A stretch of 64,000 nt of DNA from Catellatospora sp. TT07R-123 (GTDB taxonomy: Bacteria > Actinomycetota > Actinomycetes > Mycobacteriales > Micromonosporaceae), in the NCBI RefSeq assembly GCF_018327705.1, contig NZ_BNEM01000002.1:1984001-2048000 (forward strand), read 5' to 3'. Of the stretch, positions 8,451 through 41,551 are shown one piece after another (the stretch's first letter is position 1; each line of letters begins with the position of its first letter). A program made the position numbers and the translations under genes. Below the pieces are notes generated by a model. The model had not been told where the DNA came from. It saw only the letters and a list, made by a program, of their open reading frames with translations, and searched no databases.

Positions 8451-8517
8451 CATAAACGTTGGCCTATCTCATCGAGAATGATCTCGATCCAGTCGATGAG
8501 ATAGGCCAACGTCTGTG
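8451..8517. repeat. PAL-1 inverted repeat, copy a
   Basis: Two 25-base arms (8451-8475 and 8493-8517) with two mismatches enclose a 17-base loop. The core is ACGTTGGCCTATCTCATCGA. It lies 52 bases downstream of the argH stop and upstream of mpg. The loop shares TGATCT and TCCAG with the reverse complement of the loop of copy b. It may act as an argH terminator but lacks a T-run. Confidence 0.9.
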
Positions 8518-8569
8518 AAAGGACGGGCTCGGCGGCCTCGCCGGTGGGCGGGTCGGCCGGGGTGGGCGG

Positions 8570-9982
8570 TCAGCGGGGGACGACGGTCTCCGCGGCCCAG
8601 TCGTGCCAGGTCTTGAGCTGGTCCTGGACGGCGGCGAGCTGGTCGGCGACCGGGCCGGGGCCGGTGGAACCGGGGGTGGTCCGAGCGGCCAGGGCCGAGT
8701 CGACGGTGAGCACGTCGCGCACCGACGGGTCGAGGTGCGCGCTGATCGCGGCGAGGTCGGTGTCGCTGACCTCGTGCAGCTCGCAGCCGCGCAGCGCGCA
8801 CAGCGCCACCAGCTTGCCGGTGATCTCGTGCGCGTCGCGGAACGGCACGTGCCGGCGCACCAGCCAGTCGGCGACCTCGGTGGCCAGCGAGAACCCGACC
8901 GGGGCGGAGGCGGCGAGGCGGTCGGTGCGTACCGTCATGGTGGCGATCATGCCGGTGAGCGCGGGCAGGACCAGGCTGAGCGTGTCGAGGGCGTCGAACG
9001 CGGGCTCCTTGTCCTCCTGCATGTCCCGGTCGTACGTCAGCGGCAGGCCCTTGAGCATGGTGAGCACGTTGACCAGGCCGCCGATGAGGCGGCCGGCCTT
9101 GCCCCGGGCCAGCTCGGCGATGTCGGCGTTCTTCTTCTGCGGCATGATCGACGAGCCGGTGGCGAAGGCGTCGTCGAGCTCGACCCAGCCGAACTCGTAC
9201 GAGGTCCACAAAACCACCTCCTCGCCGAGCCGGGACAGGTGCACCCCGAGCAGCGCGGTGACGAACAGGAACTCGGCGACGAAGTCGCGGTCGCTGACGG
9301 CGTCCATCGAGTTGGCGAACGAGGTGCGGAAGCCCAGTTCCTTGGAGACGGCGACCGGGTCCAGCGGCAGGCCGGAGCCGGCCAGCGCACCGGCGCCGAG
9401 CGGGCTGACGGCGGCGCGGTGGTCCCAGTCGCGCAGCCGCTCCAGGTCGCGCAGCAGCGGGTGTACGTGCGCCAGCAGCCAGTGCCCGAAGGTGACCGGC
9501 TGGGCGTGCTGCACGTGGGTCATACCCGGGGCCGGGGTGCCGACGTGGCGGGCGGCCTGGTCGGTGAGCGCCTCGGCGAGCTCGGTGATCACTCCGGCGA
9601 GGCCGCGGGCGTGGTCGCGCAGGTACAGCCGCAGGTCGGTGGCGACCTGGTCGTTGCGGGAGCGCCCGGCGCGCAGCTTGCCGCCGAGCGTGCCCAGCCG
9701 CTCCAGCAGCCCGCGCTCAAGGGCGGTGTGCACGTCCTCGTCCTCGATGGTGGGCCGGAACGTGCCGGTCGCGACCGCGGCGTCGAGGTCGTCCAGCGCC
9801 GCGAGCATCTGCCCGAGCTCGTCCGGGTCGAGCAGCCCCGCCGCGGCCAGCACCCGGGCATGCGCACGCGACCCCGCGATGTCGTACGGGGCGAGCCGCC
9901 AGTCGAAGTGGACGCTCACCGACAGCCGCGCCAGCGCCTCGGCGGGCCCGTCGGCAAACCGCCCTCCCCAGAGCCTGGTCAT
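8570..9982 (-). CDS. argH: argininosuccinate lyase
   Basis: Last step of arginine synthesis: splits argininosuccinate into arginine and fumarate. The 470-residue protein belongs to the fumarase/aspartase superfamily, with the signature GSSIMPQKKN (276-285, holding the catalytic serine) and THVQHAQP (155-162, holding the catalytic histidine). The ATG at 9982 gives the normal N-terminus beginning MTRLWGGRF. It is separated from argR by 118 bases containing PAL-2 copy a, so it may be transcribed on its own. argG, which precedes argH in mycobacteria, is absent here. Confidence 0.97.
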   Translation of the reverse strand: MTRLWGGRFADGPAEALARLSVSVHFDWRLAPYDIAGSRAHARVLAAAGLLDPDELGQMLAALDDLDAAVATGTFRPTIEDEDVHTALERGLLERLGTLGGKLRAGRSRNDQVATDLRLYLRDHARGLAGVITELAEALTDQAARHVGTPAPGMTHVQHAQPVTFGHWLLAHVHPLLRDLERLRDWDHRAAVSPLGAGALAGSGLPLDPVAVSKELGFRTSFANSMDAVSDRDFVAEFLFVTALLGVHLSRLGEEVVLWTSYEFGWVELDDAFATGSSIMPQKKNADIAELARGKAGRLIGGLVNVLTMLKGLPLTYDRDMQEDKEPAFDALDTLSLVLPALTGMIATMTVRTDRLAASAPVGFSLATEVADWLVRRHVPFRDAHEITGKLVALCALRGCELHEVSDTDLAAISAHLDPSVRDVLTVDSALAARTTPGSTGPGPVADQLAAVQDQLKTWHDWAAETVVPR

Positions 9983-10010
9983 GTGTCTCCCTCACCAGTT
10001 CACAAAAATG

Positions 10011-10074
10011 CGTTGATCATGAAGTTATGGGTGCCGACACACCGTCGAACACTGCCATAAGTTCATGATCAACG
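10011..10074. repeat. PAL-2 inverted repeat, copy a
   Basis: Arms of 20 bases (10011-10030 and 10055-10074), one mismatch, with core GTTGATCATGAAGTTATGG. The 24-base loop contains CGACACACCGTCGAAC, identical to the loop of copy b near hisE. It lies 26 bases beyond the argR stop codon, in the argR-argH gap. Confidence 0.9.
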
Positions 10075-10100
10075 TTCGGGGTGGGCCGGGGCCGGGTGGG

Positions 10101-10625
10101 TTACAGGGGGTCGTCGGGGTCGTCGGCGACGGGGGTGGTGTCGAGGGCCCAGGATTGGAACTTGGCTGCCAGGGCTTCGCCGGCCTCGGGGCCGCGGGCC
10201 ACGACGAAGATGGTGTCGTCGCCGGCGATGGTGCCCACCACGTCCGGCAGGCCGCTGCGGTCGATGGCGCTGGCCAGGTAGTGGGCGGCGCCGGGCGGGG
10301 TGCGCAGGACGGCCAGGTTGCCGCTGTGGTCGGTGCCGTTGAGGACCTCGCGCAGCAGGCGGATCAGGCGGGCGGGGCCCATGGTGGCGGGGCGCAGGGC
10401 GGGGTGGCCGTCCTCGGGGATGAGGTAGACCGCCGGTCCGCCGTCGCGGCCGCGTACCTTCACCGCGCCGAGCTCCTCCAGGTCACGCGAGAGCGTGGCC
10501 TGGGTGACCTGGACGCCGTCGGCGGCCAGCAGCTCGGCGAGCTGGGTCTGCGAGGTCACCCCGCCGCCGCGGATCAGCTCCTCGATACGGGCGTGGCGCG
10601 CGGTGCGGGTCTGCGGTGCGGTCAT
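10101..10625 (-). CDS. argR: arginine repressor
   Basis: Hexameric regulator that binds ARG boxes when loaded with arginine. The 174 residues comprise an N-terminal winged helix (SQTQL... and [13 protein letters not shown], about residues 25-53) and a C-terminal arginine-binding oligomerisation domain containing [19 protein letters not shown]. The start is the ATG at 10625, giving [14 protein letters not shown]. It follows argF by 16 bases in the same operon and presumably represses the operon from the ARG-box-like sites before argC. PAL-2 copy a lies just after it. Confidence 0.96.
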
Positions 10626-10641
10626 CTCGGCTCCCCCTGGT

Positions 10642-12811
<2,170 letters not shown>

Positions 12812-12815
<4 letters not shown>

Positions 12816-13696
12816 GACGTCTCCTCAGTGTCGGCGCCGGGGACGACCATCGTCCCGAAGCCCTCGTCGGTGAACAGTTCCAGCAGGGTCGAGTGCGGCA
12901 CCCGGCCGTCGACCACGTGCGCGGCGGGCACGCCGCCCTGCACGGCGCGCAGACACGCCTCCATCTTCGGCACCATGCCCGCCGACAGCGTCGGCAGCAG
13001 CGCCTCCAGCTCCTTGGCGGTCAGCCGCGAGAGCAGGGTGGAGGTGTCGGGCCAGTTGGCGTACACCCCGGGCACGTCGGTGAGGACGATCAGCTTGCGG
13101 GCGCCGAGCGCGACCGCGAGCGCGGCGGCGGCGGTGTCGGCGTTGAGGTTGTGCGGCACGCCGTCCGCGTCGGGGGCGACCGTGGAGACCACCGGCACCA
13201 CGCCCTTGTCGAGCAGGCCGTGCAGCAGCGCGGTGTCGACGTCGCCCGCATCGCCGACCTGGCCCAGGTCGACCTGCTGTCCGTCGACGACCGTGCCCCG
13301 GCGTACGGCGGTGATCAGGCCGCCGTCCTCGCCGCACAGCCCGACCGAGCGCACGCCGTGCGTGCCGATCGTGCGCGCGAGGTCCTTGCCGATGCCCAGC
13401 AGCACCATCCGGACGACCTCCATCGCCTCGGCGGTGGTGACCCGCAGGCCGCCCTTGAACTCCGAGGCGATGCCCATCCGGTCGAGCATGGCCGAGATCT
13501 GGGGGCCGCCGCCGTGCACCACCACCGGGCGCAGCCCGGCGGCGCGCAGGAACGCCATGTCGGCCGCGAACGAGCCGCGCAGCTCGGGGGTGGTCATGGC
13601 GTGGCCGCCGTACTTGACCACGACGATCGCCCCGCGCAGCCGGTTCAGCCACGGCAGCGCCCCGACCAGCGCCTGCGCCCGGTCCTGCGGCGTCAC
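12812..13696 (-). CDS. argB: acetylglutamate kinase
   Basis: Phosphorylates N-acetylglutamate, the second step of the cyclic arginine pathway. The 294 residues have the amino-acid-kinase motifs KYGGHAM (28-34) and HGGGPQI (61-67). An N-terminal helix (about residues 5-22) of the kind found in arginine-inhibited hexameric kinases precedes them, so feedback inhibition is plausible but inferred. The GTG start overlaps the argJ stop (GTGA). The open frame runs much further upstream, but that part is a shadow of argJ. Confidence 0.96.
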
Positions 13697-14847
13697 GAGC
13701 TGTACGCCGAGTTCTCGTGCACGTACGCGTGGGACAGGTCGTTGGTCCACACGGTGGCCGACTCGTCGCCGGCGTTGAGGTCGATCGTGATCTTCACCTG
13801 CACTCCGCTCAGGTCCACCTTGGCCCGGTCCTCGGCTGCGGCGCCGGAGCGGCACACCCATACCCCGTTGATGGCCACGTCCAGCTCGTCGCTCTCGAAC
13901 ACCGCACCGGTGGTCCCCACCGCGGCCAGGACGCGGCCCCAGTTCGGGTCCTTGCCGAACAGCGCGGCCTTCACCAGGTTGTTGCGGGCCACCGCCCGGC
14001 CGACCTCGACCGCGTCCTCCTCGGTATCGGCGTTGACCACCTCGACCGCCACCTGCTTGGTGTGCCCCTCGGCGTCGGCCAGCAGCTGCATGGCCAGGTC
14101 GCGGCAGGCCGCGGTGACCGCCTCGGTCAGCTCCTCCTGCGTGGGCTCCAGGCCGGAGGCGCCGGAGGCCAGCAGCAGCACGGTGTCGTTGGTCGACATG
14201 CAGCCGTCGGAGTCGAGCCGGTCGAAGGTGACCCGGCACGCCTCGCGCAGCGCCTCGTCCAGCGCGTCCGCCCCGGCGACCGCGTCGGTGGTGAGCACGC
14301 ACAGCATCGTGGCCAGCGCCGGGGCGAGCATGCCCGCGCCCTTGGCCATGCCGCCGACGGTCCAGCCGTCCCCGGCCACCTCGGTGATCTTCGCCTTGGT
14401 GTCGGTCGTCATGATCGCCTCGGCGGCGGCGAACCCGCCCGCCTTGGCCAGCGCCTTGGCCGCGCCCTCGATGCCCGACAGCAGCTTGGGCATGGGCAGC
14501 CGCTCGCCGATCAGGCCGGTCGAGCAGACCGCGACCTGGCCGGCACCCATGCCGCCGAGGCGGCGGGCGACGTACTCGGCGGTGGCGTGGGTGTCCTGGA
14601 AGCCGCCGGGCCCGGTGCACGCGTTGGCGCCGCCGGAGTTGAGCACGACCGCCTTGACCGCGCGGCCCTTGATGATCTGCTGCGACCACATGACCGGCGC
14701 GGCCTTGACCCGGTTGCCGGTGAACACGGCCGCGGCGGTGGCGTCGGGCCCGTCGTTGACGATCAGCGCCACGTCGAGCTTGCCGGACCCCTTGAGACCC
14801 GCGGCGACACCGGCGGCCCGGAAGCCCTTGGGCGAAGTGACAGTCAT
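13693..14847 (-). CDS. argJ: bifunctional glutamate N-acetyltransferase / ornithine acetyltransferase
   Basis: Moves the acetyl group from acetylornithine to glutamate, recycling it in the arginine pathway. The 384-residue precursor is expected to cut itself before the threonine of the segment PALATMLCV (T180), leaving that threonine as nucleophile; the preceding KGAGM motif is intact. A further conserved segment [15 protein letters not shown] follows. It starts at the ATG overlapping the argC stop (ATGA). Whether it is mono- or bifunctional cannot be read from the sequence, but no separate argA or argE is seen nearby. Confidence 0.96.
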
Positions 14848-15857
14848 GGTGCGACCCCGAACACCGACAGGCCCGCGGTCTCGGGCAGCTCGAACATGAT
14901 GTTGGCGTTCTGCACCGCCTGCGCGGCGGCGCCCTTGCCCAGGTTGTCGATCGCGCTGACCACGATGACGCGGCCGCTGTCGACGTCGACGGTCGCCTGG
15001 AGGTGCGCCGCGCCGGAGCCGAGCGTCGCGGCGGTGTGCGGCCACGCCCCTTCCGGCAGCAGGTGCACCAGCGGCTCGTCGCCGTAGGCGTCGGCGAGCA
15101 CCGCGCGCACCACGGACGGGGTGATGTCGCAGCTGGTGGGCTTGGCGGTGACGGTGGCCAGGATGCCGCGCGGCATCGGGGCGAGCACCGGGGTCAGCGA
15201 CAGCGAGCGCGCCCCGGTGGCCTGCTTGATCTCGGGCACGTGCTGGTGCGCCCCCACCTTGTACGGGCTCAGGTCGCCCATGACCTCGCTGCCCAGCAGG
15301 TGCAGCTTGGCGGACTTGCCCGCGCCGGAGGTGCCGGAGGCGGCGACCGCGACCACGTCGTCGGCCTCGGCCAGGCCGCTGTGCAGCAGCGGCGCCAGCG
15401 CCAGCGTGATCGCCACGGCGTAGCAGCCGGTGTTGGCGACCCGCTGCGCCTGCGCGATCTTGGCGCGCTGGCCGGGCAGCTCGGGCAGGCCGTAGACCCA
15501 GGCGCCCGCGTGGGCGCCGCCGTAGTAGCTGCTCCAGGCGTCGGCGTCGTGCAGCCGGTGGTCGGCGCCGAGGTCGACCACCTTGGCGGTGGCGGGCAGG
15601 GTGGCGGCCAGGGCAGCGGACTCGCCGTGCGGCAGGGCCAGGAACACCAGGTCGGCGTCGGCGAACGCGTCGGGGCCGGTCTCGGCTAGGGTCAGGTCGA
15701 GCCCCGTCAGGTGGGGGTGGACCGTGGCGAGCGGCTTGCCGGCCTGGCTGTGCGCCGTGGCGGACACGAGTTCGAACTCGGGGTGCCCGGCGATCAGGCG
15801 CAGCAGCTCGCCGCCTGCGTACCCGCTGGCGCCGGCGACCGCGACCCGGATTCCCAT
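14844..15857 (-). CDS. argC: N-acetyl-gamma-glutamyl-phosphate reductase
   Basis: NADPH-dependent reductase making N-acetylglutamate semialdehyde. The 337 residues begin with the nucleotide-binding GASGYAG (9-15) and carry the catalytic cysteine C145 in ANTGCY. The ATG at 15857 is chosen because [12 protein letters not shown] matches the family start; an upstream in-frame ATG would place coding sequence across the operator region. This is the first gene of the arg operon, and two ARG-box-like palindromes lie within 60 bases upstream. Confidence 0.96.
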
Positions 15858-15873
15858 GATGACCTCCGTATAA

Positions 15874-15913
15874 GTATTCCTGATGAGAATACGGCCCACT
15901 GCATTTTCATGCA
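15874..15913 (-). promoter_or_regulatory. pair of ARG-box-like operators before argC
   Basis: Two palindromes lie next to the argC start: GTATTC with a 7-base spacer and GAATAC (15874-15892), and TGCAT-TTTC-ATGCA (15900-15913). Their centres are about 23 bases apart, close to two helical turns. Paired AT-rich palindromes of this kind are the binding sites of ArgR hexamers in other bacteria. Operator function is inferred. Confidence 0.65.
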
Positions 15914-15930
15914 AGTGAGGTCCGGGTCAC

Positions 15931-16197: not shown

Positions 16198-16277
16198 CGC
16201 CCGATCGAATCCCGCCTTCCAGCTTGTACTGGATGCCGGGCCCAGGTTGCCCGAACCAGGAGCGACGCGCCGGGAAA

Positions 16278-16337: not shown

Positions 16338-16901
16338 GGAGACACGGACGACGTCTTCGACGAACCGTCCCTGCGCGAGGTCACCGAGGGGCTGCGGGCC
16401 TTCGCCCACCCCATCCGGCTGCGCATGCTGTCCCTGCTCACCGGCGCGGCGATGAGCGCCGCCGAGGTCGCCCGCGAGCTGGACATCACGCATGCCAACG
16501 CCAGTTACCACCTGCGGTTGCTGCTTGCCAGCGGCACCATCACCACCGCCGGGGAGGAGCAGGTGCGCGGCGGCCGCGCCAAGCGCTACCGGTACGACCA
16601 CGACCACGAGCTGAACAGGCCTCCCGGCCGGCCCGACCGAGCGCCCGACCCCGACGGCGCCCGGCTGGTCTACGCCGCGCTCGCCGCCGAGCTGCAACGC
16701 CGCGCCCGCGCCATGATCCCCGGCGGAGCCAACTTCCTCACCGACGCCGAGTTGTGGGTCGACCCCGACCAGTGGCGCGAGATCCGCGACCGCGTCGCCG
16801 CGGCCGCCGACGACCTGCACCGTATCGCCCAACGCCCCCACACCCCCGGGACGCTGCACGTCAGCGCCACGATCGCCCTGTTCCGGATGGAAGACCGATG
16901 A
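16329..16901 (+). CDS. ArsR-type winged-helix transcriptional regulator
   Basis: The 190-residue protein has an N-terminal winged helix (about residues 15-95) containing AHPIRLRMLSLL, MSAAEVARELDITHANASYHLRLL as recognition region, and a basic wing GGRAKRYRY. There are no clustered cysteines, so metal sensing is not indicated. The C-terminal half may bind a small molecule. The stop codon overlaps the ATG of the MFS gene (ATGA), the typical regulator-exporter pair. Autoregulation is suggested by the direct repeats over its promoter. The ligand is unknown. Confidence 0.88.
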   Translation: MSLGDTDDVFDEPSLREVTEGLRAFAHPIRLRMLSLLTGAAMSAAEVARELDITHANASYHLRLLLASGTITTAGEEQVRGGRAKRYRYDHDHELNRPPGRPDRAPDPDGARLVYAALAAELQRRARAMIPGGANFLTDAELWVDPDQWREIRDRVAAAADDLHRIAQRPHTPGTLHVSATIALFRMEDR

Positions 16902-18151
16902 CCCTGGCCGCCGCGCTGTCACCCCTGCGCCACTCCGCCTTCCGCAACCTCGCCCTCGGCCGCCTGATCAGCCTGCTCGGCAACGCCGTCGCGCCGATCG
17001 CGCTCGCCTTCGCCGTGCTCGACCTGACCCACTCGGCCAGCGACCTGGGCCTGGTCGTCGGCGCCCGCTCGCTGACCAACGTCGCGTTCGTGCTGTTCGG
17101 CGGCGTCATCGCCGACCGCCTGCCCCGCCACCTGGTCATGGTCGGCTCCAGCCTGATGGCGGCCGCGACCCAGACCGCCGTCGCCGCACTCGTCCTCACC
17201 GGTTCGGCCACCGTGCCGCTGCTGATGGCACTGAGCGCGGTCAACGGCATGGTCAGCGCGTTCTCGCTGCCCGCCACCGCCGCCCTGATGCCGCAGACCG
17301 TCCCCGGCGACCTGCTCCAGCAGGCCAACGCGCTCAACCGGCTGGCCGGCAACGGCGCGATGATCGGCGGCGCCGCGCTCGGCGGGGCACTGGTCGCCAC
17401 CGCCGGGCCCGGCTGGGGCCTGGTCGCCGACGCGGCCACGTTCGCCGTCAGCGCCCTGTTCTTCGCCCTGGTCCGCGTCACCGACGTACGCGACCGCACC
17501 GCGCCCCGCGACGGCGTCCTCGCCGAGCTGCGGGTCGGCTGGACCGAGTTCACCTCGCGCAGCTGGGTGTGGATCATCGTGCTGGCGTTCATGGTGCTCA
17601 ACGCGACCTGGGTCGGCGGTTTCTACGTGCTCGGCCCGGTCGTCGCGGACGGCACCGTCGGGCGCTCCGGGTGGGGCGTGGTGCTGGCCACCGTGACCGC
17701 GGGCATGGTCGCCGGGGCGCTGGTCGCGCTGCGGCTCAAGCTGCGGCGGCCGCTGCTGGTCGGATGCGTGTGCATGCTCGCCGAGGTGGTGTTCCTGGTG
17801 GCACTGGCCGAGTGGCCCGGGTCGCTGGCGGCGCTGGTCGTGGTCGGGTTCCTCAGCGGGGCGGCGGTGGAGCAGTTCAGCATCGCCTGGGACATGTCCC
17901 TCCAGCAGCACATCCCGGCGGACCGGCTGGCGCGGGTGTACGCGTACGACATCCTCGGCTCGATCCTGGCGGTGCCGCTGGGGCAGATCGCGGCCGGACC
18001 GGCCGCCGCGGCGATCGGCACGTCGAACGCGCTGCTGGCGGCGGCGGGGATCAACGCGGTGGTGGTGCTGGCGATGATCGCGTCACGCGGGGTACGCAGC
18101 CTGCACGGCCCCGCCCCCGCACCCGCCACCCCTGACCCGGTCACCGCGTAA
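16898..18151 (+). CDS. major facilitator superfamily exporter
   Basis: A 417-residue membrane protein with about 12 hydrophobic segments and the loop motif GGVIADRLPRH after the second segment, as in drug:proton antiporters and the EntS-like group. It is translated from an ATG overlapping the regulator stop. The job suggested by context is export of a toxic or signalling small molecule sensed by the regulator; the substrate is not deducible. It is convergent with the RibD-like gene, with PAL-1 copy b in the 92-base space between the stop codons. Confidence 0.9.
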   Translation: MTLAAALSPLRHSAFRNLALGRLISLLGNAVAPIALAFAVLDLTHSASDLGLVVGARSLTNVAFVLFGGVIADRLPRHLVMVGSSLMAAATQTAVAALVLTGSATVPLLMALSAVNGMVSAFSLPATAALMPQTVPGDLLQQANALNRLAGNGAMIGGAALGGALVATAGPGWGLVADAATFAVSALFFALVRVTDVRDRTAPRDGVLAELRVGWTEFTSRSWVWIIVLAFMVLNATWVGGFYVLGPVVADGTVGRSGWGVVLATVTAGMVAGALVALRLKLRRPLLVGCVCMLAEVVFLVALAEWPGSLAALVVVGFLSGAAVEQFSIAWDMSLQQHIPADRLARVYAYDILGSILAVPLGQIAAGPAAAAIGTSNALLAAAGINAVVVLAMIASRGVRSLHGPAPAPATPDPVTA

Positions 18152-18181: not shown

Positions 18182-18248
18182 CATAAACGTTGGCCTATCT
18201 CATCGACTGGACGTAGATCAAAGTCGATGAGATAGGCCAACGTTTATG
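18182..18248. repeat. PAL-1 inverted repeat, copy b (perfect)
   Basis: Two perfectly complementary 25-base arms (18182-18206 and 18224-18248) enclose a 17-base loop beginning CTGG and ending AAAG. This is the best-preserved copy. It lies between convergent genes. The TAA stop codon of the RibD-like gene (18244-18246) is part of the right arm. Confidence 0.95.
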
Positions 18249-18951
18249 GGCGGCGGTAGCGCAGGAACAGGTGGGTGCCGTCGGTGAGGGTGTGGGCCAG
18301 TTCCAGGCGGCGCGGCGCCGTCCCCGACTCCCCCGCCACGATCCGCGACGCCCCCGGCCCCGCCAGCACGGGGCTCACCGTCAGGCACACCTCGTCCAGC
18401 AGATCCGCCGCCGCGAACTGCCCCGCCAGCCTCGGCCCGCCCTCGCAGAGCACCTGCGCCAGCCCGTACCCCCGAAGCCCTGCCACCATCGCCGCCGGTC
18501 CGTCGGCCCGCACCACGTCGGCGGCCTCCGCGAACGCCGCGGGGACCACAGCCTCGGCGGAGGTGACCAGCAGCGGCCGCACCGGGGACGTGGTCAGCAC
18601 GGCCGGGTCCAGGTCGAGGCGGCCGCTGACGACCGCCAGCCGCGGATGCGGCGCCAGCCCGGCCGCCTCCCGCAGCGCGACCAGGGCGTCGCCGATCAGC
18701 GCTCCGGTGTACCCCTCGGCGCGGATCGTCCCCGCCCCCACCAGCACCACGTCGGCCTGCGCCCGCAGCAGCCCCAGCAGCGCCTGGTCGGCCGGACTGC
18801 CGAGCCCGCCGGAGCGCCCGTCCACGGTCGCCGCGCCGTCCAGCGACGACACCATGTTGAGCCGGACCACCGGCTGCCCGCCGCGCGGATAGGCCGCGAG
18901 CAGCCCCCGCTGGTCCAGCTCCTCCTCCGGTACGGGCCACAGCCTGCGCAT
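18244..18951 (-). CDS. RibD C-terminal-like (pyrimidine/dihydrofolate) reductase
   Basis: The 235 residues match the NADPH-dependent reductase domain of RibD without the deaminase domain: LNMVSSLDG (31-39), VGAGTIRAEGY (71-81) and a late LCEGGPRLAG glycine loop. A full ribD lies elsewhere (32616-33704), so this is a paralogue. The related Mycobacterium tuberculosis protein Rv2671 has been shown to act as a dihydrofolate-reductase analogue. The ATG at 18951 is preferred because GAGGA lies just upstream; a GTG at 18963 overlapping the previous stop lacks such a site. Its partner upstream is a dihydropteroate-synthase-like gene, which suggests pterin or folate chemistry, not riboflavin. The stop codon lies inside PAL-1 copy b. 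Confidence 0.85.
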   Translation of the reverse strand: MRRLWPVPEEELDQRGLLAAYPRGGQPVVRLNMVSSLDGAATVDGRSGGLGSPADQALLGLLRAQADVVLVGAGTIRAEGYTGALIGDALVALREAAGLAPHPRLAVVSGRLDLDPAVLTTSPVRPLLVTSAEAVVPAAFAEAADVVRADGPAAMVAGLRGYGLAQVLCEGGPRLAGQFAAADLLDEVCLTVSPVLAGPGASRIVAGESGTAPRRLELAHTLTDGTHLFLRYRRP

Positions 18952-23742: not shown

Positions 23743-23808
23743 GGTGCAGTTTCGGGGAAAGTGCTGGAATTTTGGCCGGGATTCGTGCAGTTTCCCCGAA
23801 ACTGCACC
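23743..23808. repeat. PAL-3 inverted repeat, copy a
   Basis: Perfect 18-base arms (23743-23760 and 23791-23808) with core GTGCAGTTTCGGGGAAA enclose a 30-base interior. The interior matches that of copy b at 41411-41438, including GTGCTGGA and GGATTCGTGCA. It lies 45 bases beyond the stop of the rRNA/tRNA methyltransferase gene. The rest of the 23484-23853 gap holds only short stems. Confidence 0.92.
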
Positions 23809-26747: not shown

Positions 26748-26819
26748 GCGACGAGTCTGGCACACGCACCGCCCGGCCGGGCGCGGGCAGGTGCCCGGCC
26801 GGGCGGTGCGTGGGCACGG

Positions 26820-27704: not shown

Positions 27705-27765
27705 GTTGATCATGAAGTTATGGGCGCGACACACCGTCGAACCGCGCCATAAGTTCATGATCAAC
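27705..27765. repeat. PAL-2 inverted repeat, copy b
   Basis: 19-base arms (27705-27723 and 27747-27765), one mismatch, core GTTGATCATGAAGTTATGG. The 23-base loop includes CGACACACCGTCGAAC, shared with copy a. It lies 24 bases beyond the hisE stop, between hisE and hisG. Confidence 0.92.
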
Positions 27766-29985: not shown

Positions 29986-30065
29986 CCCTCAGGTGTACGC
30001 CCGCCCCGCAACCCCCACCAGTCCCCGATCAGCCGACGCGGCCCTGACCCCGGTGCCGCCACGCT

Positions 30066-30081
30066 TCGACGCTGGCCTATC
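30066..30081. repeat. PAL-1 solitary half-arm
   Basis: TCGACGCTGGCCTATC is identical to the arm of PAL-1 copy c located 60 bases to the right, but no matching second arm follows. It may be a decayed or truncated copy. Confidence 0.7.
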
Positions 30082-30123
30082 CAGTGGGCTGACCGCGTCC
30101 CGTGGACCGACCGCGCCGCATAG

Positions 30124-30190
30124 CATCGACGCTGGCCTATCTGGAGGACAGTTGATCACTGTCAGTCCTCTAGATAGGCCAGCGTCGATG
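30124..30190. repeat. PAL-1 inverted repeat, copy c
   Basis: 26-base arms (30124-30149 and 30165-30190) with one mismatch, core CATCGACGCTGGCCTATCT, around a 15-base loop containing TGATC. It lies 25 bases beyond the ribH stop. The right flank TGACAAGCGGGG is shared with copy e. Confidence 0.93.
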
Positions 30191-30215: not shown

Positions 30216-30712
30216 TCAGGCGAAGCCGACGGTGCGGTTCCGGCGGTTGACCTCGCGCAGCGCGATCGCGGCGTCCAGGGCCGCGACGACCGCGCCCCAG
30301 CCCTTGTCCTCGCTCGATTCCGGCAGCCCCGCCCGGTCGCGGGCCTGCGCCACGTTGTCGACGGTCAGCACGCCGTGCGCGACCGGCGTGGACTCGTCCA
30401 GCGCCACCCGGGTCAGGCCGTCGGTGACCGACTGGCTGACGTACTCGAAGTGGGCGGTCTCGCCGCGGATGACCACGCCGAGGGCGACCACCGCGTCGTG
30501 GCGGCGGGCCAGGGCCTGGGCCACCACGGGCAGCTCGACCGAGCCCGCCACGTGCGCGACGACGACCTCGTCCACGCCGCAGGCCTTGGCGGCGGCCTGC
30601 GCCCGGTCGAGCATCTGCTCGACCAGGTCGGCGTGCCAGCGGGTGGCGACGATGCCCAGGCTCAGCCCGGCCGCGTCGACGGTGGAGAGTTCGGGGGCGC
30701 CGTGACCGGCCA

Positions 30713-30713
<1 letters not shown>
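30216..30713 (-). CDS. ribH: 6,7-dimethyl-8-ribityllumazine synthase
   Basis: Penultimate riboflavin step: condenses the pyrimidine from RibD (after dephosphorylation) with dihydroxybutanone phosphate from RibBA. The 165 residues include VIRGETAHFEYVSQSV, which holds the catalytic histidine, and VLTVDNVAQARDRAG. The ATG shares a base with the ribBA stop (TGATG). It is the last gene of ribD-ribE-ribBA-ribH, with PAL-1 copy c following. Confidence 0.96.
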
Positions 30714-32559: not shown

Positions 32560-32615
32560 TGGCCCTCCTATGCCGCTGCGTCGCGGCGGTCCTCGTCTGG
32601 CGTCCCTGGGGGACG

Positions 32616-33704: not shown

Positions 33705-33783
33705 CCGTGCTCGCTCCTCCCAAAGCAGCCCGCCGTGGCTCGCGGCGCGGGCACGCCGAGGGCGCTGGCGGGAGGCCAGTGTG

Positions 33784-34803: not shown

Positions 34804-34831
34804 ACCGTCGTGCCTCCACTGTCCGATGTGG

Positions 34832-35506
34832 CTAGCGTGCTGCCGCTTGCGCCAGAGCCCGCAGTTTACGACAGGCTTCGGCCGGATCGCTGGCGCCGTA
34901 AACGGCCGTCCCGGCGACGAACGCGTCCGCGCCCGCCTCGGCGGCCGCGGCGATGGTGTCGTCGGCGATGCCGCCGTCGACCTCGATGCGGATGTCCAGG
35001 TGGCCCGCGTTCGCGTGGCGGCGGGCGGACCGGACCTTGTCCAGCAGCTCGGGCATGAAGCGCTGGCCGCCGAAGCCCGCCTTGATCGTCATGATCAGCA
35101 GGGTGTCGAAGTGCGGCAGCAGCTCCAGGTACGGCTCGACCGGGGTGTCGCGGTCGATGGCCAGCCCGGCCCTGCTGCCCGCGGCGCGCAGGTCGTTGGC
35201 CAGCGCGACCGGGTCGGCGCAGGCCTCGGCGTGGAAGGTGACGTTGTACGCCCCCAGCTCGGCGTAGCCCGGCGCCCACCGCTTCGGGTCCTCGATCATG
35301 AGGTGGCAGTCGAACGGGATGCCCGTCGTCGCCCTCAGGCTGGCCACCACGGCCGGACCGATCGTCAGGTTGGGCACGAAGTGGTTGTCCATGACGTCCA
35401 CGTGCAACCAGTCCGCCGCACCCTCGACGGCCCGCGCCTCGGCGGCCAGATTGGCGAAGTCTGCGGCGAGGATGCTGGGGGCGATCACGATCTCCGGTCC
35501 GGTCAC
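34832..35506 (-). CDS. rpe: ribulose-phosphate 3-epimerase
   Basis: Interconverts ribulose-5-phosphate and xylulose-5-phosphate in the pentose phosphate pathway; ribulose-5-phosphate is also a riboflavin precursor. The 224 residues start with [12 protein letters not shown] and have [24 protein letters not shown] and [10 protein letters not shown], the metal and phosphate sites of the TIM barrel. The GTG at 35506 gives [13 protein letters not shown]. The 353-base gap upstream, before rsmB, holds PAL-1 copy d and no gene. Confidence 0.96.
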
Positions 35507-35687
35507 GCTGATCAGCTTACGGACGGTGAACCACCGATCGCACCCGCACCCGTGGTTGCATCCCACCACCCCAACGGTCACCGGCCCCACCCGCGAGACG
35601 GACCCCCGACGTGGACGCCCGACCCAGCTCACCCACCGCCCCGCCGACCCCCCAGCGGCCTCGCGGGCAGCTACACCACCCGCCCCG

Positions 35688-35755
35688 CATAGACGTTGGC
35701 CGATCACATCGACTGGTGGCCGCGAAAAGTCAACGTAATAGGCCAACGTCTATTG
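35688..35755. repeat. PAL-1 inverted repeat, copy d (degenerate)
   Basis: The outer 12 bases of the arms (TAGACGTTGGCC) pair perfectly, with a one-base bulge outside them. The inner parts have drifted. The 17-base loop (35713-35729) still begins CTGG and ends AAAG as in copy b. It lies 104 bases beyond the rsmB stop. Confidence 0.8.
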
Positions 35756-35859
35756 AAAACGGGGCGGGACGGGGGCGGGCGGGGCGGCGAGGTCGGGCGG
35801 AGGCGGACCAGCCCCGCGCCGGTGGGCCGGGGCGGGGCTGGTCGGAGCGGATGAGCCGG

Positions 35860-37317
35860 TCAGGCGGTGCGGCGGAGCAGGGCCAGGAACATGGCGTCCG
35901 TGCCGTGCCGGTGCGGCCACAGCTGCACCGTCGGCCCGTCCCCCAGCCCCGGCATGCCCGCGGGCAGCGCGGCCCGCGCGTCCACGAACTCCACGTCCAG
36001 CCCGGACCGGCGCACCGCCTCGGTGACGCTGACCTGCGTCTCCACCAGATGCGGCGAACACGTGACGTACGCCACCAGCCCGCCGGGCCGGACCGCGCGC
36101 AGGGCCGCGCCGAGCAGTTCCCGTTGCAGCTTGGTCAGCGGCGGCAGATCCGACGGCTGGCGCCGCCAGCGCGACTCCGGCCGCCGCCGCAGCGACCCCA
36201 GCCCGGTGCACGGCGCGTCGACCAGCACCCGGTCGAAGCCGCCCTCGGGCAGGTCCCGGTCGCTGCCGACGCTGCGCCCGTCGGCGCACAGCACGGTGGC
36301 GGGCAGGTTGCGTACGGCGTTGGCGACCATGTTGGCACGGTGCTCGGTGACCTCGACCGCGGTCAGGTGGGCGCCGCGCTGGGCGCCCAGCGCCGCCAGC
36401 AGCCCCGCCTTGCCGCCGGGCCCGGCGCACAGGTCGAGCCACCGCTCGTCGCGCCCGTCCAGCGGGGCGTCGGTGAGCGCGGCGGCCACGAGCTGGCTGC
36501 CCTCGTCCTGTACGTGCGCCCGCCCGGTCTTGATCTCGACCAGGTCGCCCGGCGAGCCACCGGGCAGGTACACCGCGTACGGCGAGAACGCACCCGGCTG
36601 CCCGCCGACCTGGTCGGCCAGTTCGGCCGCGTCGGCGCGCCCCGGCCGGGCGCACAGGTGCACCTCGGGCCGGTCGTTGTCGGCCGACAGCATCCGCATC
36701 GTCTCGCCCAGGTCGCCGCCGAGCGCCTCCCGGAACGCCCGGACGATCCACTCGGGGTGGTAGCCGGTGACCGACAGGTGGCCGATCGGATCCTCGGCCT
36801 CGGCCGGGGCCACCTGCTCCAGCCAGGTGTCCAGGTCGCGTTCGGTGATGCGGCGCATGACCGCGTTGGCGAAGCCGGCCGCGCCCGGCGCGACCGAGCG
36901 CACCAGGTCGACCGTCGAGGCGACGGCGGCGTGCGCGGGCACCCGGGTGTGCAGCACCTGGTATGCCCCCAGGCGCAGCGCGTCGCGGGCGGGCGGGTCG
37001 ATCCGGGACACGTCCCGGTCGGCGGCCGCCGCGATGATCAGGTCGAGGGTGCCCCGGGTGCGCAGGGTGCCGTACGTCAGCTCGGTGGCGAACGCGGCGT
37101 CCCGGCCGAACAGCCCCGCGTCGCGCAGCAGCGACGGCAGGATCAGGTTGGCGTACGCGTCGTCGCGGTGCACCGCCAGCAGCGCCTGGTACGCGGTCAT
37201 CCGCGCCGGGTCGTGCGCGGGCCGTCCGGCGCGCGGGCCGCGCCCCGCCTGGCTGTCGCGGTCGTGCCGGGGCGGGTGCCCCGACGAGTTCGCGCTTCCT
37301 CCACGGAAACCTGTCAC
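35860..37317 (-). CDS. rsmB: 16S rRNA (cytosine-967-C5)-methyltransferase
   Basis: Methylates C967 of 16S rRNA. 485 residues: a basic N-terminal stretch, a NusB-like RNA-binding domain (about 38-175), and a C-terminal Rossmann methyltransferase with [14 protein letters not shown] for S-adenosylmethionine. The two cysteines of the m5C mechanism lie in [15 protein letters not shown] and VTCSPH. It starts at a GTG overlapping the fmt stop (GTGA); the first 38 residues are low-complexity and a downstream ATG ([10 protein letters not shown]) could be the true start. The order def-fmt-rsmB-rpe is the usual actinobacterial one. Confidence 0.95.
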
Positions 37318-38240
37318 GAGAAGCTGTCCTCCGTACCGACCCGCACACCGCGGGCCCAGTCCACCGCCGACATTGCCTTCTTGCCCGCCGCCCGGACCTC
37401 GCCCAGCGCCAGCGGGGTGGTCGCGGTGCCCACGAGCACGCGCTTCTTCTCCACCAGCAGGTCACCGGGCTTGAGCGCGGGCGCGTCCGGCGCGGGCGCC
37501 GCCGGTCCGAGCTTGACCCGCTCGCCCCGGAACGTGGTCCACGCGCCCGGGGCGGGCGTGGTGGCCCGGATGCGCCGGTCGACGGCGAACGCGGGCTCGT
37601 CCCAGCGCACCTCGGCGTCCTCGACCGTGATCTTCGGGGCGAGGGTGACGCCGTCGGCGGGCTGCGGCACCGCGCGGGCGCTACCGGCCTCGATCGCGTC
37701 GAGCACGGTCACCAGCAGGCCCGCACCGTCGACGGCCAGCCGGGCGAGCAGGTCGCCGGAGGTGTCGGCGGGACGGATCGCCGCGGTGAGGGTGCCGTAG
37801 ACCGGGCCGGTGTCCAGGCCCGCTTCGAGCTGGAACACCGAGGCGCCGGTGATCTCGTCGCCGTGCCATACGGCGTGCTGCACCGGTGCCGCGCCGCGCC
37901 AGGCGGGCAGCAGCGAGAAGTGCAGGTTGACCCAGCCGTGCGCCGGGATGTCGAGGGCGGCCTGCGGCACCAGCGCGCCGTACGCGACGACCGGCACGCA
38001 GTCGGGCGCCAGCTCGCGCAGGCGCTCCTGGAACTCGGGCTCGCGCGGGCGCTGCGGGGTGAGCACCTCGATCCCGCGCTCGTCGGCCCACGCCGCGGCG
38101 TGCGAGCGGACGAGCTGGCGGCCGCGCCCGGACGGGGCGTCGGGGCGGGTGACCACGGCGAGCAGTTCGTGGCCGGACGCCGCGATCGCGTCCAGGGAGG
38201 GCAGGGCCACCTCGGGGGTGCCCGCGAAGACGATGCGCAT
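37314..38240 (-). CDS. fmt: methionyl-tRNA formyltransferase
   Basis: Formylates initiator Met-tRNA using 10-formyltetrahydrofolate. The 308 residues begin [16 protein letters not shown] and include [20 protein letters not shown], with the catalytic Asn/His region, and a C-terminal tRNA-binding domain. It lies 4 bases after def and overlaps rsmB, so formylation and deformylation are co-expressed. Confidence 0.97.
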
Positions 38241-38244
38241 CAGC

Positions 38245-38802
38245 TCACCGGCCCAGACCGAACGGACTCGGGGCGGCGTGCGGGGAGACCTTGACCACGG
38301 TCCGGGTGGGGTCGTACCACTCGGCGCGGCGGATGTCGCGCAGCGCGGTCTTGCGCACCTGGGTGTCGAGGCGGTCGATGAAGATGACGCCGTCGAGGTG
38401 GTCGGTCTCGTGCTGGATGCAGCGCGACATCAGGCCGGTGCCGACGATCTGGATCGGGTCGCCGCTCTCGGCGAAGCCCTTGGCGATGACGTTGGCGCGG
38501 CGCTTGGTGTCGTAGTAGAGCCCGGGGACGGACAGGCAGCCCTCGTCGCCGTCCATCTCCTCCTCGTCGGGGAAGTGCAGCACCGGGTTGATCAGGTGCC
38601 CGACCACGTCGTCGACGTCGAAGCTGAACACGCGCAGGCCCACGCCGATCTGCGGGGCGGCCAGGCCCACCCCTCCGGCGTCGCGCATGGTCTCGGTCAG
38701 GTCGCGCACGAGGGTGCGCAGTTCCTTGTCGAAGTCGACCACCTCGTCGGCGGGGGTGCGCAGCACCGGGTCCCCGAAAAGTCGGATCGGCTGAACGGTC
38801 AC
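38245..38802 (-). CDS. def: peptide deformylase
   Basis: Removes the formyl group from nascent proteins. The 185 residues have the three metal-site motifs [17 protein letters not shown] and QHETDHLDG, all intact. First gene of the def-fmt-rsmB operon; the 124 bases to the divergent small gene at 38927 must hold the promoters. Confidence 0.97.
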
Positions 38803-38926
38803 AGGTGTCGTCTCCAGGGCGGGGCGGAAAAGGATGCCTGATCAGTCTACGGAGTGTCTGATGTCCGGCTGCGCCATCGGTCGCCCAGGGTTAACTTTGT
38901 CCCGTTTTCGACATAGGGAGGGCACC

Positions 38927-39217
38927 ATGGGATTCATTCAGATAATCGAGTACGAGACCGACCGCTTCAACGAGGTCGCGGCGCTGATGCAGGCCCGCGA
39001 GCAGGAGATGGACGGCCCCCCGCCGTTCAAGCTGCTGCGGGTGGCCCGCGACCGGGACAACCCGCGCCGCTACCTGACCATCGTCGAGTTCGACTCGTAC
39101 GAGGCGGCCATGGCCAACAGCGCCGATCCGCGGACCGGCGAGATGGCCGGGGCGATGGCGGCCCTGGTCGCCACGGGCCCGGTCTTCCACAACCTGGACG
39201 TGCTGCACGCGATCTGA
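38927..39217 (+). CDS. small ferredoxin-like alpha/beta protein of unknown function
   Basis: 96 residues, starting MGFIQIIEYETDRFNEVAAL, soluble and without a signal peptide. The pattern of a first strand, a helix, FKLLRVARDRDNPRRYLTIVEFDSYEAAM and a final strand resembles dimeric alpha/beta-barrel proteins such as the ABM monooxygenase fold. I cannot assign an activity. The ATG at 38927 has GGGAGG just upstream; an open frame upstream of it is not supported. It stands alone on the plus strand between def and priA. Confidence 0.7.
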   Translation: MGFIQIIEYETDRFNEVAALMQAREQEMDGPPPFKLLRVARDRDNPRRYLTIVEFDSYEAAMANSADPRTGEMAGAMAALVATGPVFHNLDVLHAI

Positions 39218-39302
39218 CGGGCCGGGTGGCGTCGGTGTCCCACCCCCGGAACCGCCGCCACCCGCTCGGGATCCAGATCGGATCCTCAGTACAACTTAGT
39301 CG

Positions 39303-41267
39303 TCATAGTTCATGTGGGTCAAGTTGGACCCGCACCGGATCGGGCGCCTTGCGCGCGCTGCGCACCCCCGCCGCCTCGTGCAGCGACCGGGCCAGTGCCA
39401 ACCCGGCGCCGCGCGCGGTGCGCAGCAGCATCCGCTCCTGCTGCTCGTCCACCGGCAGCGGGCCCAGCACCTGCACCGACTCCGGCAGCCGGGCCAGCTC
39501 GATCAGCTCTTCCACCGCCGCCGCGGTGCCGGTCAGGGTCGCCAGCCGCGCCGCGGGCGGGAATCCCAGCTCGCGCCGCTCCCCCAGCTCGCGCTCGGCC
39601 AGCCAGGCCGGATCCCAGCGCACCAGCGCCTGCACCGGCGTCAGCGAGCCCTCCGCCACCACCACGACCCGGCCGCCGCGCGCCGCCGGGCGGGCCAGCG
39701 CCGCCGCGTTGAACCAGCGCCGCGCCGCCTCCTCGGTGGCCCGCAGATCGGCGCGGGTCAGCAGCGCCCACGTGTCCAGCAGCAGCACCGCGCCGTAGCC
39801 GCCCGGCGCCACCGGCTCGGCCCCCGGCGTGGCGAGCACCAGCGACGCCTCATCGGGCACCTCCGCGAGCACCGCGTCGCGGCCCGACGTGCGCACGGGC
39901 ACCCCGGGCAGGGCCCGGCCCAGCTCCTCGGCGGTGCGGCGTACCCCCGTGACGGCCGCGCGCAGCCGGCGGCCGCCGCACCTCGGGCAGGTCCAGCCGG
40001 CCGCGGGCCGCGCGCACCACCGGCAGCTGGCCACCTGGCCCGAACCGCCCAGCGCCAGCGGCCCCGCGCAGTGCGCGCAGCGGGCCCGGTCGCGGCACTC
40101 CTGGCAGGACACCGACGGCACGTATCCCCGGCGGGGCACCTGCACCAGCACCGGCGCCCCGGCCGCCAGCGCCTCGCGCGCCGCCTGCCAGGCCAGGCTG
40201 GGCAGCCGGGCCGAGGTCGCCGCCGGATCCCGGGCCAGCTGGTTGTCGTCGGCCGCCTGCACCGCGGGCGCGGCCCGCCGCAGCTCGTCCCGGGTCGCCA
40301 CCACCTCCCGCGCCCAGCCCGTGGCCAGCAGCTGCTGCGCCTCCGCCGTACGCGAGAACCCGCCCACCAGCACCCCCGCGCCGGTCTGCTGCGCCCGCGT
40401 GAGCAGGACCTCCCGCGCATTCGGGTACGGCGAGCGCGGCTCCGCGTGCAGGTCGTCGCCGTCGTCCCAGACCGCCACCAGGCCCAGGTCCCGCACCGGC
40501 GCGAACGCCGCGGCCCGGGTGCCCGCCACGGCCGCGACCTCGCCCCGGCGCGCCTTCAGGAACCGCCGGTAGCGCTCGCCCGGCCCCAGCGCGGCCGTCA
40601 GCGCGACGTGCCGGTCCGGGCCCAGCAGCGCGGTCAGCGCGGCGTCCAGGCGGTCCAGGTCACGGGCGTCGGCGACCACGACCAGCGCGCCCCGGCCGCC
40701 GTGCAGCGTCGCGGCCACCGCCTCGGCCAGGCGCTGCGGCCACTGCTCACCCGGCAGCGCCGACCAGACCGCCCGGGGGGCGCGCCCCTCGGCCAGTCCG
40801 CGCAGGAGCGCCGCGCCGGCCGGGTAGCGGCTCCAGCCGCCGGGCTCGGGCAGCGCGGGCGGCGTCGGCACCGCGCCGGTCGCGGGCGTCTCCGCCTTGG
40901 CCTGGCGTGGCGGCACGGCCAGGCGCAGCACGTCGGCCAGGCTGCCGGCGTACCGGTCGGCGACGGCGCGGGCCAGGGTCAGCACCTGCGGGTCCAGCGC
41001 GGACTCGGCGGAGACGACCTTCTCCAGCCAGGCCAGCCTGCCCTCGTGCTCGGTGCGCCCGGCGCGCTCCAGGAGCCAGCCGTCGACGAGCTGGCCGCTG
41101 AAGCGGATCTTGACTCGCACGCCCGGCTGGGCGGAGTCGGCGAGCTCGGCCGGGACCAGGTAGTCGAAGGGGCGGTCCAGGTGCGGCAGCGGGACGTCGA
41201 CGCAGACGCGGGCGATGGGCAGCTCCGGGGCGGGCTGCCGTTCGCGTGGCGGTTTGCGTACGGTCAC
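39303..41267 (-). CDS. priA: primosomal protein N' (PriA), helicase-deficient actinobacterial form
   Basis: Replication-restart factor recognising stalled forks. The 654 residues contain the N-terminal 3'-DNA-binding domain (PLPHLDRPFDYLVP) and the paired-cysteine zinc module (C-x2-C repeats in CQECRDRARCAHC and CRWCARPAAGWTCPRCGG). The helicase core lacks GxTGSGKT: no Walker A lysine is present. The DEEH box reads DDGDDLH. ATP-driven unwinding is therefore not expected, as reported for other actinobacterial PriA. The GTG at 41267 (VTVRKPPRER) is chosen; sequence upstream of it is PAL-3 repeat. Confidence 0.92.
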   Translation of the reverse strand: MTVRKPPRERQPAPELPIARVCVDVPLPHLDRPFDYLVPAELADSAQPGVRVKIRFSGQLVDGWLLERAGRTEHEGRLAWLEKVVSAESALDPQVLTLARAVADRYAGSLADVLRLAVPPRQAKAETPATGAVPTPPALPEPGGWSRYPAGAALLRGLAEGRAPRAVWSALPGEQWPQRLAEAVAATLHGGRGALVVVADARDLDRLDAALTALLGPDRHVALTAALGPGERYRRFLKARRGEVAAVAGTRAAAFAPVRDLGLVAVWDDGDDLHAEPRSPYPNAREVLLTRAQQTGAGVLVGGFSRTAEAQQLLATGWAREVVATRDELRRAAPAVQAADDNQLARDPAATSARLPSLAWQAAREALAAGAPVLVQVPRRGYVPSVSCQECRDRARCAHCAGPLALGGSGQVASCRWCARPAAGWTCPRCGGRRLRAAVTGVRRTAEELGRALPGVPVRTSGRDAVLAEVPDEASLVLATPGAEPVAPGGYGAVLLLDTWALLTRADLRATEEAARRWFNAAALARPAARGGRVVVVAEGSLTPVQALVRWDPAWLAERELGERRELGFPPAARLATLTGTAAAVEELIELARLPESVQVLGPLPVDEQQERMLLRTARGAGLALARSLHEAAGVRSARKAPDPVRVQLDPHEL

Positions 41268-41326
41268 GCGCCTGTTCCTACCAGACGGCCCCGACGCCCG
41301 CCCACCTCCGCCACACCACTCGCCTC

Positions 41327-41389
41327 CCCCGCACGGCTGCGCGGGGCGCCCAAGACGCCTCCCCGCGCGGCCGCGCGGGGCGCCCAAGA
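41327..41389. repeat. 34-base GC-rich tandem duplication with palindrome
   Basis: A 34-base unit (41327-41360) is followed directly by a second copy (41361-41389), sharing GCGGGGCGCCCAAGA. The second unit contains the perfect 20-base palindrome CCCCGCGCGGCCGCGCGGGG (41361-41380). It lies in the 347-base priA-metK gap together with PAL-3 copy b and PAL-1 copy e. Confidence 0.8.
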
Positions 41390-41392
41390 TCC

Positions 41393-41456
41393 GTGCGCTT
41401 TCGGGGAAAGTGCTGGATCCCCGGCCAGGATTCGTGCACTTTCCCCGAAAGTGCAC
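41393..41456. repeat. PAL-3 inverted repeat, copy b
   Basis: 18-base arms (41393-41410 and 41439-41456), one mismatch, core CTTTCGGGGAAAG. The interior matches copy a across its length apart from a few substitutions and keeps GTGCTGGA and GGATTCGTGCA. It lies 125 bases upstream of the priA start. Confidence 0.92.
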
Positions 41457-41486
41457 GCATTGGCCGCGTGGGGGCAGGGGTTGAAA

Positions 41487-41551
41487 ATAGACGCTGGCCT
41501 ATCTGGGGGAGTCTCCGGCAGTCGGAGTCCTCCAGATAGGCCAGCGTCTAT
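41487..41551. repeat. PAL-1 inverted repeat, copy e
   Basis: 20-base perfect arms (41487-41506 and 41532-41551), core ATAGACGCTGGCCTATCTGG, with a further partly paired interior. It lies 63 bases beyond the metK stop. The right flank TGACAAGCGGGG matches copy c exactly. Confidence 0.93.

Follow-up and report, generated by a model that had tools for sequence, protein, structure and literature searches.

A 64,000-nucleotide (nt) stretch of the genome of Catellatospora sp. TT07R-123 (NCBI RefSeq assembly GCF_018327705.1, contig NZ_BNEM01000002.1, positions 1,984,001 to 2,048,000 of the forward strand), referred to here as the window, contains several copies of a long palindromic repeat, termed PAL-1. 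The original prediction, made from the sequence alone, listed five such palindromes. All five are present where they had been placed, each as a 67-nt unit. The coordinates of copies a, b and c were correct, the end of copy d moves from 35755 to 35754, and copy e proves to span 41486-41552. Numbered from the first letter of the window, the copies and one solo half are:

8451-8517: PAL-1 copy a, flanked by tandem genes 7709-8353 (minus strand) and 8570-9982 (minus strand)
18182-18248: PAL-1 copy b, with 27 perfect pairs, flanked by convergent genes 16898-18151 (plus strand) and 18244-18951 (minus strand)
30064-30090: solo left half of PAL-1 (arm 30068-30081), found at the same place also in the related genomes G009 and G005
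30124-30190: PAL-1 copy c, of the GGAGGAC inner type, 25 nt 3' of gene 30216-30713 (minus strand)
35688-35754: PAL-1 copy d, with left arm GGCCGAT, 3' of gene 35860-37200 (minus strand)
41486-41552: PAL-1 copy e, 3' of gene 41615-42802 (minus strand)

The stop codon of gene 18244-18951 falls within the edge of copy b, which also displays the long arms that had been claimed for these repeats. The inverted arms of copies a, b, d and e measure 26-28 nt at 85-100%, and the inverted-repeat listing shows copy c only as part of a longer pair. The arm pattern RACGYTGGCCTATC, with up to two mismatches, occurs 11 times in the window compared with 1.09 matches expected, a count reached in none of 100 shuffles; the eleventh match is the solo arm at 30068-30081. 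Copies c and e have the flank TGACAAGCGGGG in common, as had been noted. The two inner sequences described earlier also exist, but are only two among many. A weak outer complementarity, CCCCG-TTTT...AAAA-CGGGG, lengthens the palindrome. When the whole window was compared with Rfam at the gathering score, just its two rRNAs were found. For copy e, a permissive Rfam search gave mir-3199, MNV_3UTR and RNase_MRP, all far below the gathering score, and none was taken as real.

The PAL-1 unit is 65-67 bp and of near-constant length, with a stem of 25-27 pairs and paired ends. If the unit is numbered from 1 to 67, position 1 is the edge base, positions 2-4 form an outer arm, and the nearly invariant sequence GACGYTGGCCTAT occupies positions 5-17. 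Positions 18-23 are variable but paired, GA at 24-25 pairs with TC at 43-44, and a variable loop follows, in which GATC is single and off centre in 105 of 173 copies. Outside the unit, C-rich and then T-rich bases on the left pair with their complements on the right more often than background.

Arm conservation in the whole set partly reflects how copies were selected, because the searches demanded exact arms or few mismatches. A fairer measure comes from two scans. The one of the window and its syntenic stretches, which allowed up to five mismatches over both arms and spacings of 44-48, found 33 copies, with a spacing of 46 in 30 and of 45 in three; 24 of the 33 are free of mismatches over the 26 arm bases. 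The other covered a contiguous 464 kb of the same genome with spacings of 20-79 allowed, and produced 11 copies, ten with spacing 46 and one with spacing 45; the other spacings listed are second pairings of the same copies. The spread within this region (G000:C2:1984001-2448000) is uneven, with all 11 copies falling in the first 203 kb and the following 261 kb lacking any full copy. Solo arms are rare, only two with at most one mismatch being present in the 464 kb, and for this reason a DNA uptake-like repeat was rejected. An integron attC site was also considered; the order of the PAL-1 arms would be the reverse of that in attC.

Pairing is maintained while the inner sequence changes. Among 77 copies, 13 of 26 pairs have changed on both sides (one of 500 shuffles was as high), double-changed cells number 249 compared with 108.9 in shuffles (none of 500 as high), and 92.9% of cells are paired compared with at most 37.6% in slid controls. 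Pair 20/48, for example, is CG in 36 copies, GC in 16, AU in 14, GU in six and something else in five. The mean predicted RNA folding energy of PAL-1 is -44 kcal/mol. The covarying inner stem shows that the unit forms a hairpin, although covariation by itself cannot separate selection on RNA from arm-to-arm repair of a DNA quasi-palindrome.

That PAL-1 is a dispersed family, as originally proposed, is supported by searches of the whole genome (G000; 9.17 Mb in two contigs) and of ten congeners in Catellatospora. A 17-mer arm with up to three mismatches gives 144 + 157 matches in the former, compared with 18 + 20 for the reversed control. A strict pattern of two arms separated by exactly 33 nt, with at most two mismatches, yields 126 copies there rather than five, and none with the control. 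The same pattern is present in all ten congeners, at 1 to 129 copies each (129 in G009), and is absent from all 50 of the other genomes searched, 26 of which belong to other genera of the family and 24 to other families. A scan of named genomes for exact arms produced at least 120 stretches, those listed being all from Catellatospora and from seven species or strains, and viral contigs contained no stretch with the exact two-arm pattern. A covariance model was built from 77 of the 173 copies, at most nine per genome. It finds matches in all 11 Catellatospora genomes and, outside the genus, in four of 139 other genomes of the family, with one or two weak, divergent matches each; one of the two scans behind these counts used stricter filters. 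Genomes G002 and G008 have two copies and one copy, respectively, of the strict pattern; the model gives 20 and 16 strand matches, many of them weak, and these genomes therefore carry decayed copies. Catellatospora is the genus around which the PAL-1 family centres.

The pattern TCGACGTTGGCCGATC, with up to two mismatches, occurs 39 + 32 times in genome G149 compared with 7 + 2 in the control, and shows small excesses in G077, G112 and G130. Contigs of G149, including L283 (genus g66), contain among the matches listed a repeated arm, TCGACGTTGGTCGATC, that is possibly a distant cousin of PAL-1.

The position of PAL-1 relative to genes is highly biased. Genes were called by a simple codon-score caller written for the analysis, and of 190 unique copies, the 12 without a flanking gene in their locus were left out. 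The remaining 178 comprise 104 copies between convergent genes, 71 between tandem genes and three between divergent genes; no called gene contains a copy. Consequently, 175 of 178 copies lie 3' of a gene, and for these 175 the median distance to the closest stop codon that faces the copy is 39 nt. Divergent regions make up 20% of intergenic bases, and the deficit of divergent copies has a binomial probability of 4e-14. Tandem copies are nearer the stop than the start in 60 of 71 cases. Such placement just after stop codons, combined with covariation, is that of a transcription-end hairpin in the wide sense. Among 68 tandem copies, the off-centre loop GATC is on the left in 27 and on the right in 14, and 27 lack a single GATC; any transcription-related orientation of this GATC is putative.

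Syntenic stretches from all ten congeners were used to compare slots b, c, d and e, the solo half, and two further slots, P2 and P3, one of which holds a second palindrome family, PAL-2:

23744-23807: slot P2, with a PAL-2 palindrome in this genome and PAL-1 in six congeners
26760-26815: slot P3, with a GC-rich hairpin in this genome and PAL-1 in six congeners
23744-23807 and 41393-41456: PAL-2, of constant 64-bp length, with arms GTGCAGTTTCGGGGAAA; target of the insertion sequence (IS) IS-B, described below

Slot e contains PAL-1 in eight of 11 species and another hairpin in three. At slots b, c and d, PAL-1 is confined to G000, G009 and, at slot c alone, G005; the other 24 assessable cells have another hairpin (13) or none by the criterion applied (11). 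Over all 63 slot-by-genome cells, 27 contain PAL-1, 21 another hairpin and 15 neither. Ten of these 15 fall just under the criterion, with 12-13 paired bases and 1-2 mismatches, and five have nothing. Slot a is not comparable: two congeners lack its interval, and in the other eight it measures 1.1-1.3 kb.

The turnover of interiors within such slots was followed in 173 copies of length 67. Alignment of flanks of up to 900 bp on both sides gave 87 between-species orthologous pairs (85 of the 173 copies), in which both flanks align at 73-98%. The inner 33 nt of these pairs have an identity of 0.54 in the true orientation and 0.57 in the better of both; the true orientation fits better in 63 pairs and the flipped one in 18, with six ties. 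Non-orthologous interiors have an identity of 0.61 within a genome compared with 0.50 between genomes, and this difference of 0.106 was at most 0.018 in 500 shuffles of the genome labels. Position 1/67 tracks the slot (0.68 in orthologous pairs vs 0.43 within genomes), and position 9 tracks the genome (0.43 vs 0.71).

In genome G001, slot e and the unrelated slot L092 have 66 identical bases in common (positions 2-67), bounded by one mismatch at each end. Both slots are filled differently in other species: slot e interiors have an inner identity of 0.27-0.73 in seven genomes, and those of the L092 slot 0.24 and 0.27 in two. Within genomes, 24 pairs reach at least 0.90; orthologues in another species exist for both slots in eight of these pairs, for one slot in 13 and for neither in three. 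In the printed alignments of these pairs, the likeness stops at or near the unit edges, except for GC-rich matches such as L068/L071. Shared slots, genome-like interiors and the 66-base identity in two slots together suggest a copy-and-replace process. What is supported as a pattern is that the interiors of old slots are occasionally overwritten, in addition to drifting in the ordinary way.

Two elements of the IS30 family insert at the centre of PAL-1, a use of the repeat that the original prediction did not foresee. The TT07R-123 genome has three identical 1135-bp elements, termed IS-A, whose 352-amino-acid transposase matches NF033563 with 242.8 bits (cut-off 80); in Pfam, HTH_38 and HTH_23 score above the cut-off and rve just below it. 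All three copies interrupt PAL-1. The same is true of all four copies of IS-C in genome G003, whose transposase is 53% identical to that of IS-A. In all seven IS-A and IS-C insertions, the PAL-1 parts are 34 + 35 or 35 + 34 nt. Their sum is 69, or 67 + 2, and insertion is therefore at the exact centre of PAL-1; the 2-bp duplication is perfect in six of the seven. A third element, IS-B, interrupts PAL-2 in three of three copies in the TT07R-123 genome. Thus, for IS-A (3/3) and IS-C (4/4) all copies lie in PAL-1, and for IS-B (3/3) all lie in PAL-2. All five copies of IS-E in G003 have a hairpin arm of the AAGGAAGGGCACCTTC type on their left, and in four of the five it was read on both sides. 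For IS-D in G008, two of four copies are in clear hairpins, so that its copies do not all fall in one palindrome family, and for IS-F in G004 neither of two copies could be placed in a palindrome. Relatives of IS-A gave no match in seven PAL-1 genomes, including the 129-copy G009, although drafts may hide some, and the IS elements therefore look like users of PAL-1 rather than its carriers.

Palindromic flanks were also read by eye around IS relatives in other genera, with five single-copy genomes left out. They were seen in four of four copies fetched from G128, three of three from G032, three of three fetched (of seven) from G069, and two of two from each of G164 and G099. In G128, the interrupted palindrome family gives 26 + 27 arm matches (control 0), and the core between uninterrupted paired arms measures 51 bp in 16 of 17 cases and is longer in one. 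All nine IS copies in this genome adjoin an arm of one family, and five do so on both sides (at most three mismatches).

Side observations concern these further palindromes. The G128 family, GTGATACATGGCGCACCGTATGAG (L263, L270, L275, L278), belongs to another genus, and arms of it adjoin all nine copies of one IS30-family element. Hairpins of the AAGGAAGGGCACCTTC or AAGGAAGGGGCCCTTCC type occur as IS30-family targets in several genera (L233-L237 in G003; L269, L274 and L277 in G069; L267 and L273 in G164). In the 464-kb region, PAL-2 has 17 arm pairs at spacing 47, and seven more at spacing 6 that are the arms themselves, which are palindromic; BLAST placed PAL-2 in G000, G005 and G009 among the matches listed. 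The window includes one more repeat:

10011-10074 and 27705-27765: third inverted repeat, TTGATCATGAAGTTATGG...CCATAAGTTCATGATCAA, with 10 arm matches (at most two mismatches) in the 464 kb

Palindrome-targeting IS elements and repeated palindromes are already known as a kind. Tobes and Pareja (PMC1525189) list IS elements with all copies, 4/4 to 10/10, in repetitive extragenic palindromic (REP) elements, and name the families IS3, IS110, IS4, IS256 and IS5. Like IS-A and IS-C, such REP-specific elements (ISPa11, ISPpu9, ISPpu10, ISPsy8, ISRm22, ISRm19; IS1397, IS621) have all copies in one palindrome family. The elements described here differ from those in the survey, as far as its text and table extend, in that they belong to the IS30 family, insert at the exact centre, and have siblings in different palindrome families. 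A table in the survey has IS1655, assigned to the IS30 family in PMC3898611, as REP-associated in merely 2/13 and 2/6 copies. IS1630 is described in PMC3317919 as an IS30-type element that targets inverted repeats; in that account, its target sites are diverse and four copies have duplications of 16-26 bp, whereas here each IS uses one palindrome family and makes 2-bp duplications. An IS30 hot spot is called nearly palindromic in PMC9333248. Among the papers listed by the literature searches, no description was seen of PAL-1, its near-constant geometry or turnover in old slots, or of sibling IS30 elements that use different palindrome families; a search for IS30 with terminators and Streptomyces gave no match.

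PAL-1 is a real, genus-wide family that most likely functions as a 3'-end hairpin. The account we favour, and regard as probably correct, is that PAL-1 hairpins mark the 3' ends of transcription units throughout the genus, that many of their slots are old and their interiors sometimes overwritten, and that IS30 elements are users of the repeat. Position and pairing are observed; the predicted activity is that of an RNA hairpin lacking a U-tract, which would probably work in both directions and terminate transcription, protect the 3' end, or both. Many slots are inherited vertically, and now and then an interior is replaced by that of another copy in the same genome, a pattern that the comparisons support; the mechanism would presumably be breakage at the hairpin or cruciform followed by ectopic repair through the shared arms (gene conversion). 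SbcCD-type enzymes cut hairpins. The centre would become a specific target for IS30-family transposons because the arm is conserved, the length hardly varies and the interior is paired; these elements insert there with a 2-bp duplication, and presumably use the PAL-1 family and do not carry it.

Some observations weigh against this account. An RNA role at 3' ends had been proposed, and position (175/178) and pairing support it, but the U-tract of a classical terminator is absent. Read from the incoming gene, the 8 nt after the hairpin are 7% U and 33% A, with at least four U in 0 of 272 readings and at least four A in 82. Because no U-tract follows the hairpin, PAL-1 does not qualify as a classical intrinsic terminator, and a U-less bidirectional 3'-end hairpin would fit best. 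U-less, I-shaped terminators near the stop codon are described in mycobacteria in PMC12288462. Like PAL-1 they are hairpins that lack poly-U, but that source does not present them as a family of repeats. Of the titles in its reference list, one calls the U-tract dispensable and one says that the mycobacterial polymerase requires it; with titles on both sides, the class is disputed, and U-less termination is plausible, not established. The conserved arm sequence exceeds what a terminator hairpin needs, and a sequence-reading factor may exist. The 15 of 63 cells without a hairpin by the criterion imply that a hairpin there is not indispensable. With regard to overwriting, the average similarity to other copies of the same genome exceeds that to the orthologue in only 55 of 87 pairs, some orthologous interiors are still 0.82-0.91 alike, and cross-assignment may affect up to six of the 87 pairs (L022/L123, L161/L093, L161/L071). 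Where both flanks align at 90% or more (33 pairs), identity is 0.62 for the interior and 0.59 for the ungapped adjacent 10 nt. Interior divergence alone is therefore no faster than that of nearby intergenic DNA, which weakens the replacement reading and leaves it to rest on within-genome similarity and the near-identical pairs.

Alternatives share part of this evidence. It is unlikely, though conceivable, that PAL-1 homes into other hairpins, with another copy serving, via the arms, as the template on which a broken gene-end palindrome is repaired. Residents of equivalent slots would then be overwritten without a dedicated transposase, these residents being its own older copies and perhaps unrelated hairpins, and IS30 transposons would track such families and might supply the breaks. 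We are doubtful that PAL-1 is a DNA site whose two arms, at their fixed spacing, are both bound by a nucleoid or regulatory protein with sequence specificity. The near-invariance of arm sequence and length in the 33-copy scan is what such a site would produce, and IS30-type transposases evidently recognise PAL-1; however, an inner stem that keeps pairing as its sequence changes is unneeded in duplex DNA, and nearly all copies lie 3' of genes. Common descent as Rho-independent terminators, evolving slot by slot without copying between slots, appears very improbable. It would account for the 3' location, the folding energy and interior divergence that resembles nearby intergenic DNA, but not for the missing U-tract and A-rich downstream sequence, arms kept where flanks are nearly saturated, within-genome similarity that exceeds between-genome similarity, or the 66 bases identical in two old slots.

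A mobile origin, in which a transposase acting in trans moves PAL-1 as a REP or REPIN or as a miniature inverted-repeat transposable element (MITE), had been proposed and now seems quite improbable. PAL-1 is indeed dispersed, palindromic, intergenic and present in up to 129 copies, some of them near-identical paralogues. Like REP/REPIN systems with a REP-associated tyrosine transposase (RAYT), it consists of dispersed extragenic palindromes, many 3' of genes and plausibly transcribed (PMC3733652, PMC3116915). REP elements as presented in PMC3733652 have stems of 5-13 bp and an unpaired GTAG or CGTC tag, features that PAL-1, with its 25-27-bp stem and paired ends, does not have; the main text of that paper has no occurrence of Actinobacteria or Streptomyces. 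Whereas the REPIN system has a RAYT, PF01797 (the Y1/RAYT-type transposase) gave no match in G000, G002, G009, G005 or G007. Four of these genomes (G000, G009, G005 and G007) have 51-129 PAL-1 copies each, and a RAYT/REPIN origin was rejected on this result; PF01797 matches occur in six of 11 genomes, mostly in frames of 150-157 amino acids. A MITE with target duplications was also rejected, since edge words of 2-9 bases in the 173 copies are within the range of 200 shuffles, although old copies could have lost such duplications. With regard to MITE-type shared ends, IS-A and IS-C are inserted in the loop and end in different sequences, the search for an element ending in PAL-1 arms having gone no further than these IS; the arms are likewise not IS terminal repeats, as had been allowed for, because the ends of the IS inside some copies differ from them. 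PAL-1 positions shared across species, and the seven PAL-1 genomes in which no IS-A relative was found, also speak against this origin. ERIC/IRU (enterobacterial repetitive intergenic consensus/intergenic repeat unit) sequences are, like PAL-1, long intergenic palindromic repeats near transcribed regions, of another sequence, about 127 bp, and enterobacterial.

In PAL-1, actinobacteria would offer an example of repeated gene-end hairpins that change in content while most of their slots stay fixed, and it allows one to ask how short palindromes homogenise without a transposase. The IS30-family members on different palindrome families form a natural series for how a transposase reads a palindromic target. 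Insertion tools directed to the spaces between genes might also be derived from palindrome-targeting IS30 elements.

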